Source: Collimonas sp. OK242 (lineage in GTDB: Bacteria; Pseudomonadota; Gammaproteobacteria; Burkholderiales; Burkholderiaceae_D). From it: 64,000 nt of DNA. Location: contig NZ_FNOR01000007.1 of assembly GCF_900107095.1 (NCBI RefSeq), positions 186,001 through 250,000 on the forward strand, given 5' to 3'. The notes under the pieces are model-generated. The model saw only the letters and a list, made by a program, of their open reading frames with translations. It did not search any database and was not told where the DNA came from. Positions 1,128 to 22,003 of this stretch are shown one piece after another. Made by a program: the position numbers and the translations under genes. The number at the start of each line of letters is the position of its first letter. Within the stretch, counting starts at the first letter, position 1.

Positions 1128-2024
1128 TTACTCTGCGCCTTTGAGGCGAGCAATCAGACCGTCCAGCGTATCCAGATCGGAAAAGTCGATTATCAGCTGA
1201 CCGCGATTCTTGGCCGCGGTCTTGATTGTTACCTGAGTCGCCAGCAAATCCGACAACTCCTCTTCCAGCCGGGCGATATCGCGCGACTTTTCCCTGGTTT
1301 TGGCAGGCCGGCTGGCTGCATCGGCTTCGGTGGTGGTGCGCACCACGAGCTTTTCGGTATCGCGCACCGACATCCGTTTGGCCACTACCTGGTTGGCCAG
1401 CGTGATCTGGGTCGCCGCGTCCACCGCCAGCAGCGCCCGTGCATGGCCCATGTCGATATCGCCCGCCATCAGCATGGTTTGCACCGGCTTGGCCAGGTTC
1501 AGCAGACGCAACAGATTCGAGACCGCACTGCGCGAACGCCCCACCGATACCGCTGCCTGCTCGTGGGTAAAACTGAAATCGGTGATCAGGCGATGAATAC
1601 CCTGCGCTTCTTCCAGCGGATTCAGGTCTTCGCGCTGCATGTTTTCGATCAGCGCCATCGCCGCCGTGGTCTGGTCGTCGACATCCTTGACCAGCACCGG
1701 CACCTCGATCAGGCCGGCCAGCTGAGCTGCACGGAAACGCCGCTCGCCGGCAATGATTTCATAATGCTGGGAGCCGTTGTGCAGGGCGATCGGCCGCACC
1801 AGGATCGGCTGCAGCAGGCCCTGCTCTTTGATCGACGCCGCCAGTTCGGCCAAGGCGCCCTCATCCATGCGCGTACGCGGCTGGTATTTACCAGCCTGCA
1901 TGACGGTGACCGCCAATACCGATGGCGCGCCGGCAATGGTCGGCACGGCTTCGGTGATATCAGTGGAGCCGCCCAGCAGAGCCTCCAGGCCGCGGCCCAG
2001 TCCTTTTGATTTTTTCGTGACCAT
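1128..2024 (-). CDS. parB: Chromosome-partitioning protein ParB
   Basis: ParB is the CTP-dependent clamp that loads at parS and spreads, working with ParA to segregate origins. The protein has 298 residues. It begins with the typical lysine-rich KKSKGLGRGLEALLG. The arginine-rich CTP-binding motif GERRFRAA is at about 93-100, a helix-turn-helix (EQAAVSVGRSRSAVSNLL) is near 155-172, and a C-terminal dimerisation segment ends in LDGLIARLKG. Two parS sites lie about 4.5 kb away, upstream of mnmG. It is separated from parA by 161 bp that carry an unusual repeat array, so it may have its own promoter there. Confidence 0.97.
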   Translation of the reverse strand: MVTKKSKGLGRGLEALLGGSTDITEAVPTIAGAPSVLAVTVMQAGKYQPRTRMDEGALAELAASIKEQGLLQPILVRPIALHNGSQHYEIIAGERRFRAAQLAGLIEVPVLVKDVDDQTTAAMALIENMQREDLNPLEEAQGIHRLITDFSFTHEQAAVSVGRSRSAVSNLLRLLNLAKPVQTMLMAGDIDMGHARALLAVDAATQITLANQVVAKRMSVRDTEKLVVRTTTEADAASRPAKTREKSRDIARLEEELSDLLATQVTIKTAAKNRGQLIIDFSDLDTLDGLIARLKGAE

Positions 2025-2063
2025 CTTTTCCTACCGTAGATTACTGATTACATTACAACGAGC

Positions 2064-2188
2064 TGTGGATAACCTTGTTGATAACCCTGTTTATACCCTG
2101 TTCATAGCTCTGTTCATAACCGTATTAATAAGCTGTTAATGAGTTGCGTATAAGCTTGTGGATAAGCTTGTGAGTAAGCTGTGCATTA
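2064..2188. repeat. Phased array of DnaA-box-like 9-mers between parA and parB
   Basis: Eleven consecutive units related to TGTGGATAA start at 2064, 2076, 2088, 2099, 2111, about 2122, 2134, 2145, 2157, 2169 and 2180, a spacing of 11 or 12 bases throughout. The units at 2064 and 2157 are perfect DnaA boxes. Others are one to three changes away, for example TGTTGATAA, TGTTCATAA, TGCGTATAA and TGTGAGTAA; the unit at 2122 is the weakest. The last unit overlaps the parA stop codon. The period is close to one helical turn, so every unit faces the same side of the DNA. DnaA binding is inferred from the motif only. Confidence 0.8.
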
Positions 2189-2956
2189 CATTGTCTTGAT
2201 GCGTTCCACCATCTCGGCGCCAAAGGCGATATATGCCTGCGCGCCCTTGGACGCGGCGTCAAAAGTGACCCCCGGCATGCCATACGAAGGTGCTTCCGCC
2301 AGACGCACATTGCGCGGAATGACCGTCTTGAACACTTTGTCGCCAAAGTGCTTTTCCAACTCCTCCGACACCTGCTGCGACAAGGTCATGCGCGGATCGA
2401 ACATCACGCGCAGCAAACCGATAATCTTCAGGTCGGGATTCAGATTGGCGTGCACCTTCTTGATGGTGTTGACCAGGTCCGACAAGCCTTCCAGCGCATA
2501 GTATTCGCACTGCATCGGGATGATTACCCCATTCGCTGCGCACAAGCCGTTCAGGGTCAGCATCGAGAGCGCAGGCGGACAGTCGATCAGGATGAAATCG
2601 TAGTCGTCGGCAACGCTGATGAACGCATCTTTCAAACGCTTCTCGCGATTTTCCAGTTCGACCATTTCCACTTCAGCGCCGGCCAGTTCGCGATTTGCCG
2701 GCAGCACGTCAAAACGGCCCGTCTCTGAAGTTTTGCGCACCGATTGGATATCCGACATTCCCAGCAGCACTTCATAGATCGAAGCTGTCAGCGTGCCTTT
2801 GTTGATCCCCGCACCCATGGTTGCATTGCCCTGTGGATCGAGATCGGCCAGCAGGACGCGTTGATTCAGTTGCGCCAGGCCAGCGGCCAGATTGACGGCG
2901 GTGGTGGTTTTGCCGACCCCGCCCTTTTGATTGGCGACACAAAATATTTTTGCCAT
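2186..2956 (-). CDS. parA: Chromosome-partitioning ATPase ParA (Soj)
   Basis: ParA is a Walker-type ATPase that binds DNA non-specifically as an ATP dimer and moves ParB-parS complexes. The deviant Walker A KGGVGKTTT lies at residues 11-19 with both the signature and catalytic lysines. DLDPQGNAT follows at about 38-46, and LIDCPPALS is the Walker B region near 122. Its 256 residues match the chromosomal class; there is no N-terminal helix-turn-helix as in plasmid type Ia ParA. No clear ribosome binding site is seen before the ATG at 2956. It is followed by parB across the repeat array. Confidence 0.97.
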   Translation of the reverse strand: MAKIFCVANQKGGVGKTTTAVNLAAGLAQLNQRVLLADLDPQGNATMGAGINKGTLTASIYEVLLGMSDIQSVRKTSETGRFDVLPANRELAGAEVEMVELENREKRLKDAFISVADDYDFILIDCPPALSMLTLNGLCAANGVIIPMQCEYYALEGLSDLVNTIKKVHANLNPDLKIIGLLRVMFDPRMTLSQQVSEELEKHFGDKVFKTVIPRNVRLAEAPSYGMPGVTFDAASKGAQAYIAFGAEMVERIKTM

Positions 2957-4449: not shown

Positions 4450-6375
4450 TCAGGCAGCTTGATCGTCCGCATCCAGACGCTTCATGCCACCCTTTTTCAG
4501 GTGTACCAGCAACAGCGACAACGCCGCCGGCGTAACGCCGGAAATCCGCGACGCCTGGCCGAACGTTTCTGGCCGGTGCTGATTCAGCTTTTGGCGCACT
4601 TCGATCGACAGGGCTTGCACATCCATGTAATCCAGATCGGCAGGCAGCTTCAGGTGTTCATTGTGTTCATGACGCTCGACTTCCTTCGCCTGGCGGTCGA
4701 TGTAACCGGCGTATTTAACCTGGATCTCGACTTGCTCCTTGACCGTGTCGTCCTGCACGCCCGGACCGCCCAGATCCTGGCCATCGATGCCCTTGAGCGT
4801 CATCAGTTGATCATAAGTAACATTCGGCCGGCGCAGCAAATCCGCCAAGGCATATTCGCGCTCGATGGCCTTGCCGAGCAAACGCTCGGCTTCCGCTTCT
4901 GCCACGATACGTGGATTCACCCAGGTTGAACGCAGGCGCTCCATCTCGAGTGCTACTGCTTCGCGTTTTTTCTCGAACTGCGCCCATTGCGCATCGCCGA
5001 CACAACCAAGCTGGCGGCCAATCTCGGTCAGGCGCAAGTCGGCGTTGTCTTCGCGCAGGCTGAGGCGATACTCGGCGCGGCTGGTGAACATGCGGTAAGG
5101 TTCTTGCACGCCTTGGGTAATCAGGTCGTCGACCAGTACCCCAAGGTAAGCTTCGTCGCGCCGCGGAGTCCAGGCATCGCGTTCCTGTGTTTGCAGTGCG
5201 GCGTTCAAACCGGCCAGCATGCCCTGGGCAGCGGCCTCTTCATAACCTGTGGTGCCATTGATCTGGCCCGCAAAGTACAAACCTTGGATCAATTTGGTTT
5301 CCAGCGAAGCCTTCAAACCGCGTGGATCGAAATAGTCGTATTCGATGGCGTAGCCGGGGCGCAGGATGTGGGCATTCTCCAAACCGCGCATCGAATGCAC
5401 CAGAGCCAGCTGTACGTCGAATGGCAAGCTTGTCGAAATACCATTTGGATAAAACTCGTTAGTGGTCAATCCTTCCGGCTCCAGGAATATCTGGTGCGAA
5501 TCCTTGCCAGCAAAGCGGTGGATCTTGTCCTCGATTGATGGACAGTAGCGCGGCCCTACTCCCTCTATCACGCCGGTATACATCGGGCTGCGATCCAGGC
5601 CGGCACGAATGATGTCATGCGTTTGCTGGTTGGTATGGGTAATCCAGCATGGCAATTGCGCCGGATGCATCGCGGTATTGCCCATCACGGAAAATACCGG
5701 CACCGGATCGAGATCGCCCGGCTGTTCCTGCATCACGGAAAAATCGATGGTGCGGCCGTCGATACGCGGCGGCGTGCCCGTCTTCAGGCGGCCTTGCGGC
5801 AACTTCAATTCTTTCAGTCGCGCCGACAGGGAAATCGCCGGTGGGTCACCGGCACGGCCAGCGGAATAGTTGTTGAGACCGACGTGGATCTTCCCATCCA
5901 GGAAAGTACCCGCGGTCAACACCACTGCCCTGCTACGGAATTGGATGCCGACATGCGTCACGGCGCCGACCACGCGATCGCCCTCTACCAGCAGATCATC
6001 CACGGCTTGCTGGAACAGCCAAAGATTTTCCTGGTTTTCCAGGCGGAAGCGGATTGCTTGCTTATATAAGATGCGGTCGGCTTGCGCGCGGGTTGCGCGT
6101 ACCGCCGGTCCTTTTGAGGAATTCAGGATACGAAACTGGATACCGGCTTCATCGGTGGCGATTGCCATCGCGCCACCCATGGCGTCGACCTCTTTTACCA
6201 GGTGACCCTTGCCTATCCCGCCAATTGAAGGATTGCACGACATCTGGCCCAGGGTCTCGATATTATGGGTCAACAATAAAGTCTTTTGGCCCATGCGAGC
6301 GGACGCCAGCGCGGCTTCGGTGCCGGCATGACCGCCGCCGACGACGATTACATCAAAATGTGTAGGAAAAAGCAT
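4450..6375 (-). CDS. mnmG: tRNA uridine-34 carboxymethylaminomethyl synthase subunit MnmG
   Basis: MnmG (GidA) is the FAD subunit which, with MnmE, makes the cmnm5 modification of wobble uridine in certain tRNAs. The FAD dinucleotide loop [12 protein letters not shown] lies near the N-terminus. Also visible are [17 protein letters not shown] and the C-terminal [20 protein letters not shown]. The length of 641 residues is full for the family. A GAGGCG ribosome site is adjacent to the ATG. Its partner mnmE is at the far end of this window, about 57 kb away. The upstream region holds two parS sites. Confidence 0.98.
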
Positions 6376-14614: not shown

Positions 14615-15434
14615 ATGGATATTACCCAACTTTACGCCTTCGTCACCGTCGCCAGAGAAGGGAACCTGAGCCGCGCTGCCGCATTACTGCATGTCGCGCA
14701 ACCGGCTGTCAGCCTGCAAATCAAGTCGTTGCAGAGCAGCTTGAATCTGCAATTATTTACACGCATCCCCAGCAACATGACGTTGACCGACGATAGCATC
14801 AAGTTACCACCATTTGCCGAACGTACAACCGCTGCCGTATCACAGTTACGTCAACAAGCAGACAGCCTGCATTCCAACAGCTCGTAAATACTGAGCGAAA
14901 AAAACTCGCAATCGGTACGATTCTCGATCCTGAATTCATCCGGCCCGGCGTTTTCCTCCAGCGTTTGGCAGAAAGTTATCCCCAGCTTTCTGCACTTTGC
15001 AACACAGCATGCCTGACGATGTACAGCGGTTGATCAGATCAGGCCATCTCGATGTCGGCTACTACCTCGGTACGCCAAACAAAACTTTCCATCGGCTCAC
15101 ACTGACACAATTTACTTACTGCGTGCTTGCACCATCCGCTTGGAACAGCCGTGTTTCCGGAAAAGACTGGCCGGCTTTGGCTAAATTGCCGTGGATCTGG
15201 ACTCCGCCGGAGTCGGCCCATCACCGTTTATTCGGTAAAACCTTTGCTCAATGCAAAGCTACTCCAAATAAAGTTGCGTCAGTTGCCTTACCCGAAGCAC
15301 ATGCTCATTGCCTGGTCATTTCAGATACGGTCGATTTATCGACCCAACTTTCATTTATTACCCTGGATAAACGTAAAAACGAAGCAGTTACCGTTGCCGT
15401 ACTTGCCATATTGAAGACGATTTGGGGAAATTAA
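14615..15434 (+). pseudogene. Decayed LysR-type regulator
   Basis: The first 90 codons encode an intact LysR DNA-binding domain (MDITQLYAFVTVAREGNLSRAA and so on, then a degraded linker) that ends at a stop at 14885-14887. A second frame around 14900-15010 still encodes LAIGTILDPEFIRPGVFLQRL, the start of an effector domain. From 14997 another frame gives DVQRLIRSGHLDVGYYLGTP and continues to the family C-terminus at 15434. At least two frameshifts therefore interrupt one ancestral gene of about 300 residues. It is divergent from the mmsA remnant, the usual layout for a LysR regulator and its target. Confidence 0.85.
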
Positions 15435-15496: not shown

Positions 15497-15616
15497 TTTG
15501 TATTTAAAGATTTATATATATAAATAGTAGTAGTAGTTAACCACCTGCTTTTCTGTGGATAACACTAAATTTGACTATTCATTCAAGCACTTATGACTTG
15601 GATAAAGGCTGAGTAA
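15497..15616 (+). repeat. Origin direct repeat, left copy
   Basis: This 120-bp copy differs from the right copy (15889-16008) at only two positions (15542 C against T, 15594 T against C). It includes the AT tract, TAG x4 at 15525-15536 and the DnaA box at 15554-15562. Beyond 15616 similarity continues in a weaker form to about 15722, ending with a DnaA box at 15712-15720. Confidence 0.95.
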
Positions 15617-15888
15617 ACCTTGTATCTGGAAAGAACATTTCTTGGATAAAAAATAGGGTGTGGATATCTAACTCAATTATTCACAATGGATTCCAGTAGT
15701 TATCCAAAGACTTATCCACAGTTGCTTTCCTACATCTCCTTCTTTTCTACTTTCGAAGTAGATGTCTTTTGTAAACTCCCAAAAAAAGAACATGAACAAA
15801 AAACCGAATTTTTTTGAAAAATTGGTTTTTTAACTTCTTTTTGTTAATTATTTTTTTAAAGCAACTTCAAAAGAAAAAGCTTTTCGGT

Positions 15889-16008
15889 TTTGTATTTAAA
15901 GATTTATATATATAAATAGTAGTAGTAGTTAACTACCTGCTTTTCTGTGGATAACACTAAATTTGACTATTCATTCAAGCACTTACGACTTGGATAAAGG
16001 CTGAGTAA
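15889..16008 (+). repeat. Origin direct repeat, right copy
   Basis: This is the second copy of the 120-bp unit, 118 of 120 bases identical to the left copy. TAG x4 is at 15917-15928 and the DnaA box at 15946-15954. The diverged continuation holds the boxes at 16051, 16069, 16091 and 16103. The 166-base spacer between the two modules is A/T-rich, with long A and T runs and a small palindrome around 15747-15761. Confidence 0.95.
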
Positions 16009-16277
16009 TCGGTGTATCCCTGAAGAATAGTTCTTGGATAAAAAGACAGCTGTGGAAAACTATCTCAGATATCCACAATTGAAAAACACGATATCCACAG
16101 CTTTATCCACAAATTCGAAAAATTTGCCGGTTTACCGATGTTTTTGAGCCCAGGCCGACAATTTTTAAGAAAAATTTTCTTCTGCCTAAATAATGAGCAG
16201 CACCTAAGAAAAGAAAAATCTGGACAAGCGAAATTCAAAGCTTTAATGTACGCATAGCGTAGATAACGGAGATGCGA

Positions 16278-17579
16278 ATGAGCGATCAACAGACTTTTCT
16301 CCGCGATGCCATGCGTCGCATGAACCTTACCAGGGACCTTTTCTCCGACCGTATCGGTGTTCGCAAACGCGCACTGGATACTTGGTTGCTCCCGGAAACA
16401 TCTGGGGAATTCCGGGTCATGCCCGACATTGTCAGCAAATTCGTCAACGAAATTCTGGCGAGCGGATTGCTGCAACCGGTCTTAACGCAGAGCGTATATA
16501 TGCATCAAGCAGGTGCGCCGCTACGCGAGCAGATTTCCCATAACGGCAAACCGCAACTCCTGTCGGTAGACCAGTTTTCACGCGACTCGCTCGAACAGCT
16601 GTTCCGCGTGACGGACATCATGCAGCCCATTGCAAGGCGCCAGAAGGTGTCGCGCATCCTTGAGGGTGCCGTGCTAGCCAATTTGTTCTTTGAAGCCAGC
16701 ACGCGCACGCGTATCAGCTTTGGAGCGGCTTTTTGCCGGCTAGGCGGCTCGGTATGCGATACCACCGGCTTTACCTTCTCTTCCATGACCAAGGGCGAGT
16801 CGATTTATGACACCAGCCGCGTCATCAGCGGTTATGTCGACGCGCTGGTGGTCAGGCATCCGGAACAAGGAGCGGTCGACGAATTCGCCCGCGCTACGAA
16901 TATCCCGGTGATCAATGGCGGTGACGGCCCTGGCGAGCACCCGAGCCAGGCGATTCTCGACCTGTACACCATACAGCGCGAATTCTCGCGGCTGGGGAAG
17001 CTGATCGATGGCGCTCACATCGTCATGGCCGGCGATTTGAAGTACGGCCGCACCGTGCATTCGCTGATCAAGCTGCTGGCGCTGTATCGCGGCCTGAAGT
17101 TCACCCTGATCGCACCGCCCGCGCTGGAGATGCCCGCCCATATCCTGAACCGCATTGCACGCGGCGGCCACGTGGTGGAACAATCAACGTCCTTGGCGCA
17201 GGGGTTGAAAGGAGCCGACATCGTGTATGCCACACGGATCCAGAAGGAGCGCTTTGCCGATGAGGCAATAGAAGGCTATACCCCGGATTTCCAGATCAAC
17301 CAGGCGCTGATCGACGCCACCTGCGGCGCCGACACTATCGTCATGCATCCCTTGCCGCGCGACGGCCGGCCCGGCGCCAACGACCTCAGCACGGATCTCA
17401 ACCACGATCCGCGCCTGGCGATCTTCCGCCAGACCGACAATGGCATACCGGTAAGAATGGCGATCTTCGCCACTTTGCTGGGCGTGGAGAACCAGGTGCA
17501 GCATTCGATGCGCGATGTCAGCTGGCGTTCGCCGCACCATGTCGGGCCGGACGATGCAGTGTTTGACGGATTGGAATGA
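16278..17579 (+). CDS. pyrB: Aspartate carbamoyltransferase with N-terminal helix-turn-helix-like extension
   Basis: This enzyme condenses carbamoyl phosphate and aspartate, the committed step of pyrimidine synthesis. The catalytic part shows the carbamoyl-phosphate motif FFEASTRTRISF, TKGESIYDT, GDGPGEHPSQAILDLYTI, HPLPRDG and a C-terminal GIPVRMAIFATLLG. About 92 extra residues precede it (433 in total against about 310 for usual PyrB). Their first 60, RRMNLTRDLFSDRIGVRKRALDTWLLP, look like a small DNA-binding-type helical domain. The ATG at 16278 is chosen because GGAG lies six bases upstream; the ATG at 16272 is too close. The gene starts about 165 bases from the last DnaA box. Confidence 0.9.
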   Translation: MSDQQTFLRDAMRRMNLTRDLFSDRIGVRKRALDTWLLPETSGEFRVMPDIVSKFVNEILASGLLQPVLTQSVYMHQAGAPLREQISHNGKPQLLSVDQFSRDSLEQLFRVTDIMQPIARRQKVSRILEGAVLANLFFEASTRTRISFGAAFCRLGGSVCDTTGFTFSSMTKGESIYDTSRVISGYVDALVVRHPEQGAVDEFARATNIPVINGGDGPGEHPSQAILDLYTIQREFSRLGKLIDGAHIVMAGDLKYGRTVHSLIKLLALYRGLKFTLIAPPALEMPAHILNRIARGGHVVEQSTSLAQGLKGADIVYATRIQKERFADEAIEGYTPDFQINQALIDATCGADTIVMHPLPRDGRPGANDLSTDLNHDPRLAIFRQTDNGIPVRMAIFATLLGVENQVQHSMRDVSWRSPHHVGPDDAVFDGLE

Positions 17580-19996: not shown

Positions 19997-22003
19997 ATGC
20001 AAAACAATAAAACCCCATTGGTGCTGATGCTGAGCGCGTGCGTAGCATTGCTGCCGCTCGCGGGTTGCGATAAAAAAGCCGACACCGCACCAGCGGCGTC
20101 GGCGCCGCAAGTGCCGCAAGCACAAGCGGCTCCAGCGTATGTTCCGCCAACCGCCGAGCAGCTATACCAGCTGGTCGGCCCGATCGCCTTGTTCCCTGAC
20201 AAGCTGGTGGCGCAAGTACTGGCAGCATCCAGCTATCCCGACCAGGTGACGGCTGCCGACAACTGGCTGGCGCAGAACCGGAATCTGAAAGGCAGCCGGC
20301 TGCAGGACGCCGCCAATCAACAACCCTGGGACGTCAGCGTAAAAGGCCTGACCCAATTTCCTAGCGTGCTGGATCAGATGGCCCGCAACATCCCCTGGAC
20401 CTCCGCTCTCGGCGACGCCTATGTCAACGATCCTGTCGATGTGATGAACGCGATTCAGGTGATGCGTCAGCGCGCCGCCAGCAGCGGCAACCTGAAAAAC
20501 ACTAAACAGCTGCGTATCGCCGTGAGGCCGCGCGCCGAACCGGCGCCGGCTTACGACTATGCGCAAGCACCCGGTGAGCCGCAGGTGTACGACGGCCCGG
20601 AAATGATTCCGCCGCCGCCGGAAACCATCGTGATTGAACCGGCCGAACCGGACGTAGTGTATGTACCGGCCTACAATCCCGGCGTGGTCTACGGCGAGCC
20701 GCTGCCGGTCTATCCCGGCTATGCCTACGAACCCGCTCCTGTGTATTACCCGCCTGGCGAAATTGTGACTGCCGGCGTGATTACGTTTGGGCTGGGGATT
20801 GCAGTCGGCGCCGTTATCAGCCATCACGACTGGGGCTGGAATTCCTGGGACGTGCATTGGGGCGGCCGCCCTGGCGGCGACGGTGGCGGCGGCAACTGGA
20901 ATGGCGGCCACTGGCACCGGCCTGCGGTTGTGTATAACGACAATACTTACGTGTCGCGTTCCACCACGATCGTCAACCGCGTCACCAATAACGTTACGAA
21001 TAACAATACGGTGATCAATAACAATAGTAATAACAACAATAACAACCGCTTCAACAATAACAATAATAACAACAACCGCAATAATTTTGGCGGTCCTGCC
21101 AACAATCCCGCGTTAGCCAATGGCGGGCGCCCTGGCCAGCCAGGCGGTGGCGCTCTCAATTTCAATGCTGCCCGGCCTAACTTCGGTGCGCAGGGAAATC
21201 CTGTACAACCGCAGATGAATCCACAGATGAATCAGAATGCTGCGCCGTTTGCCGGCAATCCCCGGCCGAACCATCCACAGCCGGATTTCAACCACATGAC
21301 CAAGCCTAATTTCGGCAAGGTTCCGCCAGGCGCAAACGGTGTCGACGCTGCGCCAAATCTGAATCAATTGGCGCGCCCGGGATTTGTCCGGCCGGCGCCA
21401 AACCAGCCGCAAGCCGGCGAACAGGGCCATCCGGCGTTCGGCCAGCCTGGGCAAAACGCAAGGCCGATGCCGAATCAGCTACAGCAAAACGCGCAGAATC
21501 TGCACCCGGCTCCGCCCAGGAATCTGGAAGCACAAAAACCCGCGAACCTGAACCAGCACCCTTTCGGCGGCAATACGCAAAGGCCGAACATCAACCGCCC
21601 TGCCGCGCCAGAGATGGCAAGGCCGCAGCCGCAGCCATTTCAGCCGCCGCAGAATGTGCAGAATCGGCAGCCGGAACAGTTCCAGAACAGGCCTAACGGC
21701 GGCCAGCAAATGCATCAGGAAATGAATCGGCCGCCGGCAAATCCTGCTCCTCAGGTATCGAATCGCCCGGAACCGCGGCCACAACCACAACCGCAGATAC
21801 AAGTGCGACCGCAGCCTCAGCCTCAGCCTCAGCCGCAAATGCAACCACGCCCGCAGCCTCAACCTCAGCCGCAAATGCAACCACGTCCGCAGCCTCAACC
21901 TCAGCCGCAGGTCCAGCAGCCACATCCGCAGCAGAAAAATCACGAGCAGGAGCATAACAATGGCGGTATCCATCTCCAAAAGAAGGAAGACGATCACAAA
22001 TGA
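19997..22003 (+). CDS. DUF3300 protein with Asn- and Pro/Gln-rich low-complexity tail
   Basis: The function is unknown. The N-terminus is a lipoprotein-like signal (LMLSACVALLPLAGCDKKAD). Residues about 50-230 are the DUF3300 domain (QLYQLVGPIALFPDKLVAQVLAASSYPDQV, then VYVPAYNPGVVYG). A short hydrophobic GVITFGLGIAVGAVISHHDWGW segment follows. The rest is low complexity: an asparagine-rich stretch near 335-372, then Pro/Gln/Asn-rich sequence and (RPQPQPQPQMQP)-type repeats to the His/Lys-rich end. A GGGAG site precedes the ATG. Such tails suggest an extended surface or envelope-anchored protein. Confidence 0.85.
   Translation: MQNNKTPLVLMLSACVALLPLAGCDKKADTAPAASAPQVPQAQAAPAYVPPTAEQLYQLVGPIALFPDKLVAQVLAASSYPDQVTAADNWLAQNRNLKGSRLQDAANQQPWDVSVKGLTQFPSVLDQMARNIPWTSALGDAYVNDPVDVMNAIQVMRQRAASSGNLKNTKQLRIAVRPRAEPAPAYDYAQAPGEPQVYDGPEMIPPPPETIVIEPAEPDVVYVPAYNPGVVYGEPLPVYPGYAYEPAPVYYPPGEIVTAGVITFGLGIAVGAVISHHDWGWNSWDVHWGGRPGGDGGGGNWNGGHWHRPAVVYNDNTYVSRSTTIVNRVTNNVTNNNTVINNNSNNNNNNRFNNNNNNNNRNNFGGPANNPALANGGRPGQPGGGALNFNAARPNFGAQGNPVQPQMNPQMNQNAAPFAGNPRPNHPQPDFNHMTKPNFGKVPPGANGVDAAPNLNQLARPGFVRPAPNQPQAGEQGHPAFGQPGQNARPMPNQLQQNAQNLHPAPPRNLEAQKPANLNQHPFGGNTQRPNINRPAAPEMARPQPQPFQPPQNVQNRQPEQFQNRPNGGQQMHQEMNRPPANPAPQVSNRPEPRPQPQPQIQVRPQPQPQPQPQMQPRPQPQPQPQMQPRPQPQPQPQVQQPHPQQKNHEQEHNNGGIHLQKKEDDHK
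21806..21910 (+). repeat. 36-bp in-frame minisatellite in the DUF3300 gene
   Basis: Three head-to-tail units near 36 bases encode RPQPQPQPQMQP; the first unit has one extra CAGCCT. The copies at about 21848 and 21884 differ by a single base. The unit length is a multiple of three, so copy-number change would keep the frame. Confidence 0.85.

Follow-up and report, generated by a model that had tools for sequence, protein, structure and literature searches.

Two tandem oriC-like units form a probable chromosomal origin in Collimonas and recur in its family

The locus described here is probably the chromosomal oriC of a Collimonas strain and consists of two complete, tandem, DnaA-dependent units, each of which would be kept as an unwinding module, with either or both opening. 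It lies in the window, by which we mean the whole 64-kb stretch that was analyzed (positions 186001-250000 of the 275-kb contig 15 in a 4.98-Mb draft genome), where the two units are offset by 392 bases and flanked by a lysR gene and a pyrB-like gene. A sequence-only reading of the same DNA had also called the locus a chromosomal origin, and this assignment is supported by the polarity of the DnaA-trios, the layout of DnaA boxes and IHF-like sites, the conservation of two copies in the genus, the multiplicity of the units in the family and their position at the GC-skew minimum of a Janthinobacterium genome, all of which were read from sequence. Chromosome replication in this soil bacterium, and in the majority of the relatives sampled, appears to initiate at a site with two or three complete start signals, compared with one in a bacterium such as E. 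coli.

Each unit revealed the same order of elements (Table 1): an AT tract, four TAG triplets, GTTAAC, an inverted perfect DnaA box at the R1 position and an IHF-like site, followed by two weak boxes (CTTGGATAA), three one-mismatch boxes and a perfect forward box at the R4 position. The sequence-only reading had described two units 392 bases apart, each with an AT tract, four TAG repeats and an inverted perfect box, together with a near-identical core and a weaker homology ending in another perfect box, and we confirmed this description. Units A and B differed at 2 positions over the left 118 aligned bases and at 35 positions over the right part, which ends in the forward boxes at 15712 and 16103. 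Six perfect DnaA boxes were present in the window, four within the units and two at 2064 and 2157. The combined pattern of trios and box, TAGTAGTAG...TGTGGATAA, was found only in units A and B across the whole assembly, and the same pattern read backwards had no occurrence there. A unit profile run against the 275-kb contig scored 139.0 and 136.3 bits at the units and 9.6 bits at the next-best place. The genes parB, parA and mnmG are all within 15 kb of the units, and about 52 kb downstream of the units the contig carries dnaA.

Table 1. Features of the origin locus and of associated genes. Positions are those of the window unless a contig is named.
Feature	Position	Strand	Remark
Origin unit A (complete oriC-like unit)	15500-15720	+	profile score, layout, conservation
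Unit A AT tract (putative DNA unwinding element)	15511-15524	+	
Unit A four DnaA-trios (TAG)	15525-15536	+	polarity as in BUS, as described in PMC8287927
Unit A GTTAAC (GTWWAC motif between trios and R1)	15536-15541	+	first base is the final base of the last TAG
Unit A perfect DnaA box, R1 position	15554-15562	-	
Unit A IHF-like site	15581-15593	+	1 mismatch, 18 bases after R1
Unit A weak DnaA box CTTGGATAA	15597-15605	-	2 mismatches
Unit A second weak box CTTGGATAA	15641-15649	-	
Unit A one-mismatch box	15659-15667	-	
Unit A one-mismatch box	15677-15685	+	
Unit A one-mismatch box	15700-15708	+	
Unit A perfect forward box, R4 position	15712-15720	+	
Inter-unit spacer	15721-15891	.	poorly conserved, 0.65 over 15721-15880
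Origin unit B (complete oriC-like unit)	15892-16111	+	profile score, layout, conservation
Unit B AT tract	15903-15916	+	
Unit B four DnaA-trios	15917-15928	+	
Unit B GTTAAC	15928-15933	+	
Unit B perfect DnaA box, R1 position	15946-15954	-	
Unit B IHF-like site	15973-15985	+	1 mismatch
Unit B weak box CTTGGATAA	15989-15997	-	
Unit B second weak box CTTGGATAA	16033-16041	-	
Unit B one-mismatch box	16051-16059	-	
Unit B one-mismatch box	16069-16077	+	
Unit B one-mismatch box	16091-16099	+	
Unit B perfect forward box, R4 position	16103-16111	+	
pyrB-like gene (aspartate/ornithine carbamoyltransferase domains)	16272-17579	+	right neighbour
parB (1128-2024) and parA (2186-2956)	1128-2956	-	segregation genes of origin region
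mnmG (gidA)	4450-6375	-	neighbour of oriC in E. coli
Lone N6-adenine-type methyltransferase gene (L330)	contig 35: 129048-129707		between hisD and hisB homologues

The overall arrangement of each unit resembled that of the E. coli oriC, in which an inverted R1 box also lies by an AT-rich element, with an IHF site at +18 on the same strand and a perfect forward box at a distance. By sequence, R1 in each unit adjoins the unwinding element, an IHF-like site follows and the R4 box faces R1 from the far end. A family model (R2) scored 19.6 bits against the E. coli oriC, in an alignment that starts shortly ahead of R1. The IHF consensus used for scoring was WATCAANNNNTTR. In a set of 136 units, 26 from the genus and 110 from 50 loci of the family, the best WATCAANNNNTTR match within 55 bases after R1 had at most one mismatch in 122, a level reached by 9.6% of 2720 dinucleotide shuffles, and an IHF-like site was located exactly at +18 from R1, on the same strand, in 117. 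The same scoring placed the best match of the E. coli oriC at +18 as well, with two mismatches to WATCAANNNNTTR. Both IHF subunits are encoded in the Collimonas genome. The consensus printed in the accessible part of PMC8407004 is WATCARnnnnTTR. Among the 110 family units, the R1 box was perfect in 98 and had at most one mismatch in 109, the end box was perfect in 98 and at least three trio-like triplets were present in 101; AT tracts were seen, uncounted, in printed sequences of these units. The distance from R1 to the end box was 157 or 158 bases in 71 of the 110, compared with 180 in E. coli.

The TAG triplets run in the polarity of the DnaA-trio, as had been noticed from the sequence alone, and match the basal unwinding system (BUS) as described for B. 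subtilis incC and other origins in PMC8287927, where a DnaA box lies by middle-A trios of matching strand polarity. The BUS calls for at least three such trios of the right polarity near a DnaA box, and each unit contained four. Unlike the described BUS, the element is present two or three times in the family, an IHF-like site follows R1, and a 17-base spacer separates the trios from the perfect box in both window units; the search rule published in PMC8287927 allows at most 16 bases between the trios and the first DnaA box. This spacer measured 13-14 bases in 24 of the 110 family units and at least 17 in the rest. A 9-mer with two mismatches to the box is present at 15537, inside the spacer, but it faces the other way. 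A DnaA-box cluster combined with an AT-rich unwinding element, which is the mark of an oriC, occurs twice in the window, whereas an E. coli-type origin has one unit (a 119-base piece of the E. coli oriC was found at 5376 places in 5374 matching genomes). The bipartite origins of B. subtilis and H. pylori also have two DnaA-box clusters within a few kb, but their unwinding element lies in one subregion according to the portion of PMC4285127 available, while here each cluster has its own AT tract, trios and R1. The sequence-only reading had proposed a duplicated unwinding module; the module is indeed present twice, but each unit, judged by its elements, has the parts of a complete origin and not the module alone.

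Within the genus, 13 of 15 genomes matched the locus over 612-651 of its 651 bases, and all 13 contained exactly two units, 371-393 bases apart. The named records that carry two copies at a distance of 390-393 bases, five in number, all belong to Collimonas. The mean pairwise identity among these 13 loci was 0.91 and 0.86 for the left and right halves of unit A and 0.89 and 0.86 for those of unit B, compared with 0.65 for the DNA between the units, 0.65 and 0.68 for the flanks, 0.83 for the lysR end and 0.78 for the pyrB start. The higher conservation of both copies relative to the intervening DNA supports strong selection, one of the explanations that had been offered for their near-identity. 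Fixed differences between A and B occupied 18 alignment columns, all within the right halves. From this comparison the duplication is older than the genus; the recent duplication that had been suggested was rejected, as the copy-specific right halves are common to all 13 genomes. An assembly artefact was likewise rejected, as both copies were present in single-contig genomes (e.g., G002, G004, G005 and G008). No unit match was found in two genomes of the genus, G011 (1.7 Mb) and G006 (86% complete). G011 is a reduced genome, and neither origin-unit model matches it.

Gene conversion, the third explanation that had been put forward, was tested in four genera and was clear in one only. In g23, probably Herminiimonas, it was supported, as only 167 of 20000 shuffles reached the observed value for the left half and 147 of 20000 for the right half, and all 10 units of the 5 genomes were nearest to their own partner copy. 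Genus-wide conversion in Collimonas was unsupported (1684 of 20000 shuffles reached the observed value, and 1993 of 20000 for the right half), as it was by the same permutation test in g27 and g6. Two bases directly after R1 are common to both window copies and unlike the nearest relative, which suggests a local conversion event in this genome.

The comparison with relatives that had been called for was extended to 294 family genomes at least 95% complete, of which 289 matched: 257 had at least two matches among those listed, some of the extra ones being partial (e.g., in G018), 32 had one and 5 had none. As 37 of the 294 have one match or none, two copies are not indispensable everywhere. Of the 50 loci studied closely, 47 had two or three full units (three units in 13) and 3 had a single unit; these loci were chosen among the better-scoring matches, so the rate of 47 in 50 is biased upward and the 294-genome count is fairer. 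The spacing of units in the multi-copy loci ranged from 330 to 3572 bases. The units were all on one strand in 38 of these 47 loci, and opposite-facing copies were found in 9, namely all five of g23 and four others. In a tree of 91 units, two of the three Janthinobacterium (g6) positions grouped with g40 copies with full support, and Collimonas unit B joined g15 copies weakly (83/54).

Outside the family, searches of the order and the class scored the best 6-10 first-look candidates per genome with strict filters. The order sample gave 249 matching genomes, 235 of them outside the family, and 81 of these 235 had at least two listed matches, many of which were weak, far apart or on overlapping strands; the multi-unit origin is therefore not strictly a family trait. 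In the class-wide sample, 80 of 232 genomes matched; besides the Collimonas genome, 69 had one match and 10 had two. As a separate observation, paired origin-like units were seen in some other families of the order (L144, L145, L149 and L150). Adjacent pairs were among the listed matches of G409, G563, G480, G539 and G568, with one in G505 across contig ends; the G409 pair (L145) is about 3.2 kb apart on opposite strands, and the G539 pair (L150) is about 275 bases apart.

The clearest skew signal came from Janthinobacterium genome G132 (6,288,464 bases), in which dnaA matched at 1,076 and three units lie at 354,907-356,064. Over the 1-400 kb examined, its cumulative-skew minimum fell at 353,712, 1.2 kb from the units and about 352 kb from dnaA, which contradicts a minimum only near dnaA, the finding that had been named as refuting the origin. 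The skew was negative in 54 of 71 5-kb windows before 355 kb and in 1 of 8 after 360 kb; spot samples were positive at 420, 480 and 560 kb and gave -0.004 at 6.21 Mb and -0.061 at 6.25 Mb. From the minimum and the spot samples, we consider the origin of this genome to be marked by the units and not by dnaA. The separation from dnaA noticed from the sequence alone therefore held both in the window's contig and in G132, where it is about 353 kb, and the units can help to locate origins in such genomes. At the units of the complete relative G005, the 20-kb skew changed sign, from -0.043 to +0.002; it reverted between 2.44 and 2.70 Mb, and the first 20 kb, which hold dnaA, had a skew of -0.051. 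The cumulative minimum of G005 was at 21,680, about 70 kb from the units, and that of the window's contig at 263,794, 62 kb from the units. Both minima lie on the dnaA side of a plateau (70 kb in G005), so that skew places the origin unsharply in these two sequences, and the skew check that had been recommended favoured the units in G132 only.

Around dnaA in the Collimonas genome there is a single perfect box upstream of the gene and another in the dnaA-dnaN gap, and the profile search of the 275-kb contig revealed no unit match there. An origin at dnaA is disfavoured in this genome by that result, although skew alone would be compatible with it. In Herbaspirillum (g27), the units are 5-7 kb from dnaA; the consulted part of the H. 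seropedicae genome paper (PMC3093359) placed the origin by skew and dnaA and suggested the dnaA-dnaN gap or the region upstream of dnaA. The origin of Herminiimonas arsenitoxidans was placed by skew in the consulted part of its genome paper. An origin apart from dnaA has a precedent in the same order, since the skew transition of Cupriavidus metallidurans chromosome 1 is about 90 kb from dnaA and adjoins 213 bases that contain 3 perfect DnaA boxes (PMC2864759). The accessible text of that paper differs from our case in describing one box cluster, with trios and a repeated unit unmentioned.

The hexamer GTWWAC was enriched in the units, with 335 sites in the 136 units (2.46 per unit vs 0.38 in shuffles). 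Its density there was 10 per kb, compared with 86 sites in the 275-kb contig, or 0.31 per kb, and counts for seven other hexamers of like shape were 10-109. Of the 136 units, 131 had a GTWWAC site between the trios and R1 (GTTAAC in 99, GTAAAC in 32) and five had none there, but this fixed position is partly forced because the motif overlaps the last TAG. PF01555 had one match in the Collimonas genome, a 279-residue protein encoded between hisD and hisB homologues, which shares 68% identity over 243 residues with a B. cenocepacia protein whose gene is flanked by a PALP-domain (trpB-type) gene on one side and trpA on the other. Both proteins match PDB entry 8urk, which is named only 'Methyltransferase'. 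As described in the available part of PMC7364216, the B. cenocepacia orphan enzyme BCAM0992, encoded between trpB and trpA, methylates GTWWAC, and GTWWAC sites lie near the GTWWAC/CACAG-methylated origins. The present units resemble those origins in this respect, with the difference that here the site is fixed between the trios and R1. We infer that the motif of the Collimonas methyltransferase is GTWWAC. The GATC clusters and SeqA of an E. coli-type origin were both missing: GATC occurred 0 times in the window units, compared with 11 times in 250 bases of the E. coli oriC, and 48 times in the 136 units vs 113 expected by composition, and no SeqA match was found in the Collimonas genome in a search with E. 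coli as positive control. Adenine methylation at GTWWAC may mark newly replicated units in place of GATC and SeqA, and the fixed site is a candidate, amenable to testing, through which methylation could control initiation in bacteria that lack SeqA.

Our proposed mechanism is modelled on E. coli and B. subtilis as described in the available parts of PMC8287927 and PMC13220808, and it predicts DnaA binding, IHF binding, melting and the opening of both copies. DnaA would bind the perfect R1 box in each unit, IHF would bend the DNA 18 bases past R1, and DnaA would fill the weak boxes and the far forward box, building an oligomer. The trios would guide this oligomer onto one strand, the AT tract would open, and opening at either unit, or at both, would load helicases for a single origin locus. 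Opening at either unit may suffice for helicase loading, since selection appears to keep both as unwinding modules; each unit may also be an autonomous opening module, because the trios and R1 are near-universal while strand and spacing are variable. More tentatively, and as a possibility that we would not yet favour, the family as a whole may use a multi-unit origin with two or three oriC units within a few kb, each self-opening and in any orientation, their number kept by selection and their activity synchronised through GTWWAC methylation in the spacer that separates the trios from R1, as a counterpart to GATC and SeqA. If this is true, the rule of one unwinding element per bacterial origin fails for the family.

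The 18 fixed columns in the right halves would also fit unequal roles of the two units. The main alternative, a functionally bipartite origin in which one unit opens and the other is a DnaA-loading partner acting through a DNA loop, comparable with the upstream oriC subregion of B. subtilis or with oriC1 of H. pylori, would agree with the confinement of these differences to the halves assigned to the DnaA oligomer and with the variation of copy orientation and distance across the family. We nevertheless regard it as rather unlikely: a loop partner needs boxes only, yet the left half of B is conserved like that of A in the genus, 109 of 110 family units keep R1 with at most one mismatch, 101 keep at least three trio-like triplets, and the bipartite origins described in PMC4285127 have the unwinding element in one subregion only. 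It is quite improbable that the units divide the labour of bidirectional replication, with one helicase loaded at each. Two is the commonest match number and the copies are opposed in 9 of 47 multi-copy loci, but in the other 38 the units share a strand, so that the helicases would be loaded on the same strand, and 13 of 50 loci have three units.

We give very little weight to the view that one copy is a drifting relic of duplication. Single copies in 3 of 50 loci and 32 of 294 genomes indicate that copies can be lost; against this view, both copies exceed the neighbouring DNA in conservation in 13 genomes, two of the three g6 positional lineages are common to g40, and a unit without a near-perfect R1 is rare (1 of 110). 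Hardly any weight at all is left for the alternative that the locus serves DnaA-dependent control of pyrB, or titration of DnaA, instead of replication initiation. The units are directly upstream of pyrB in this window, as the sequence-only reading had pointed out, but pyrB adjoins them in only 1 of the 50 loci of other genera (L103), and the units at the skew minimum of G132 speak against regulation and titration alike. We know of no role of an AT tract plus trios in titration, which we count against that possibility.

The model origins in the literature consulted have one unwinding element each. Repeated complete oriC units in this family were not described in the open-licence literature that was consulted in part, and a description may exist elsewhere. 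The putative double origins of Gao 2015 (PMC4403523) also comprise more than one oriC on a chromosome, but those cases concern single species, with origins that either flank dnaA or lie far from one another (up to 882 kb); neither this family nor any conserved repeated unit is mentioned. With two or three whole units as the norm, free in spacing and strand, the family offers a natural test of which origin parts have to act in cis, and it raises the question of how firing stays once per cycle when several units could fire.

Some minor features of the surroundings were also observed. The perfect boxes at 2064 and 2157 are both inverted and sited between parB and parA. The lysR-type gene by the origin (window 14615-15434) consists of two open frames here, and in L096, L094 and L026 of a single one, 293-295 codons long. 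Additionally, a three-box motif (a forward box with inverted boxes at +14 and +26) was found twice on contig 15, at 158800-158834 and 159254-159288 (L014). The surrounding stretch, 27 kb left of the window start and about 42 kb away from the origin, has no open frame of 180 codons. We take this motif to resemble the DnaA-reactivating DARS cores of E. coli, duplicated here; BLAST of the motif against E. coli gave no useful match. A search for the three-box motif returned 5 hits at its own spacing and 0 at five other spacings, and elsewhere the motif was present as a pair in G005 and as a single copy in G132.
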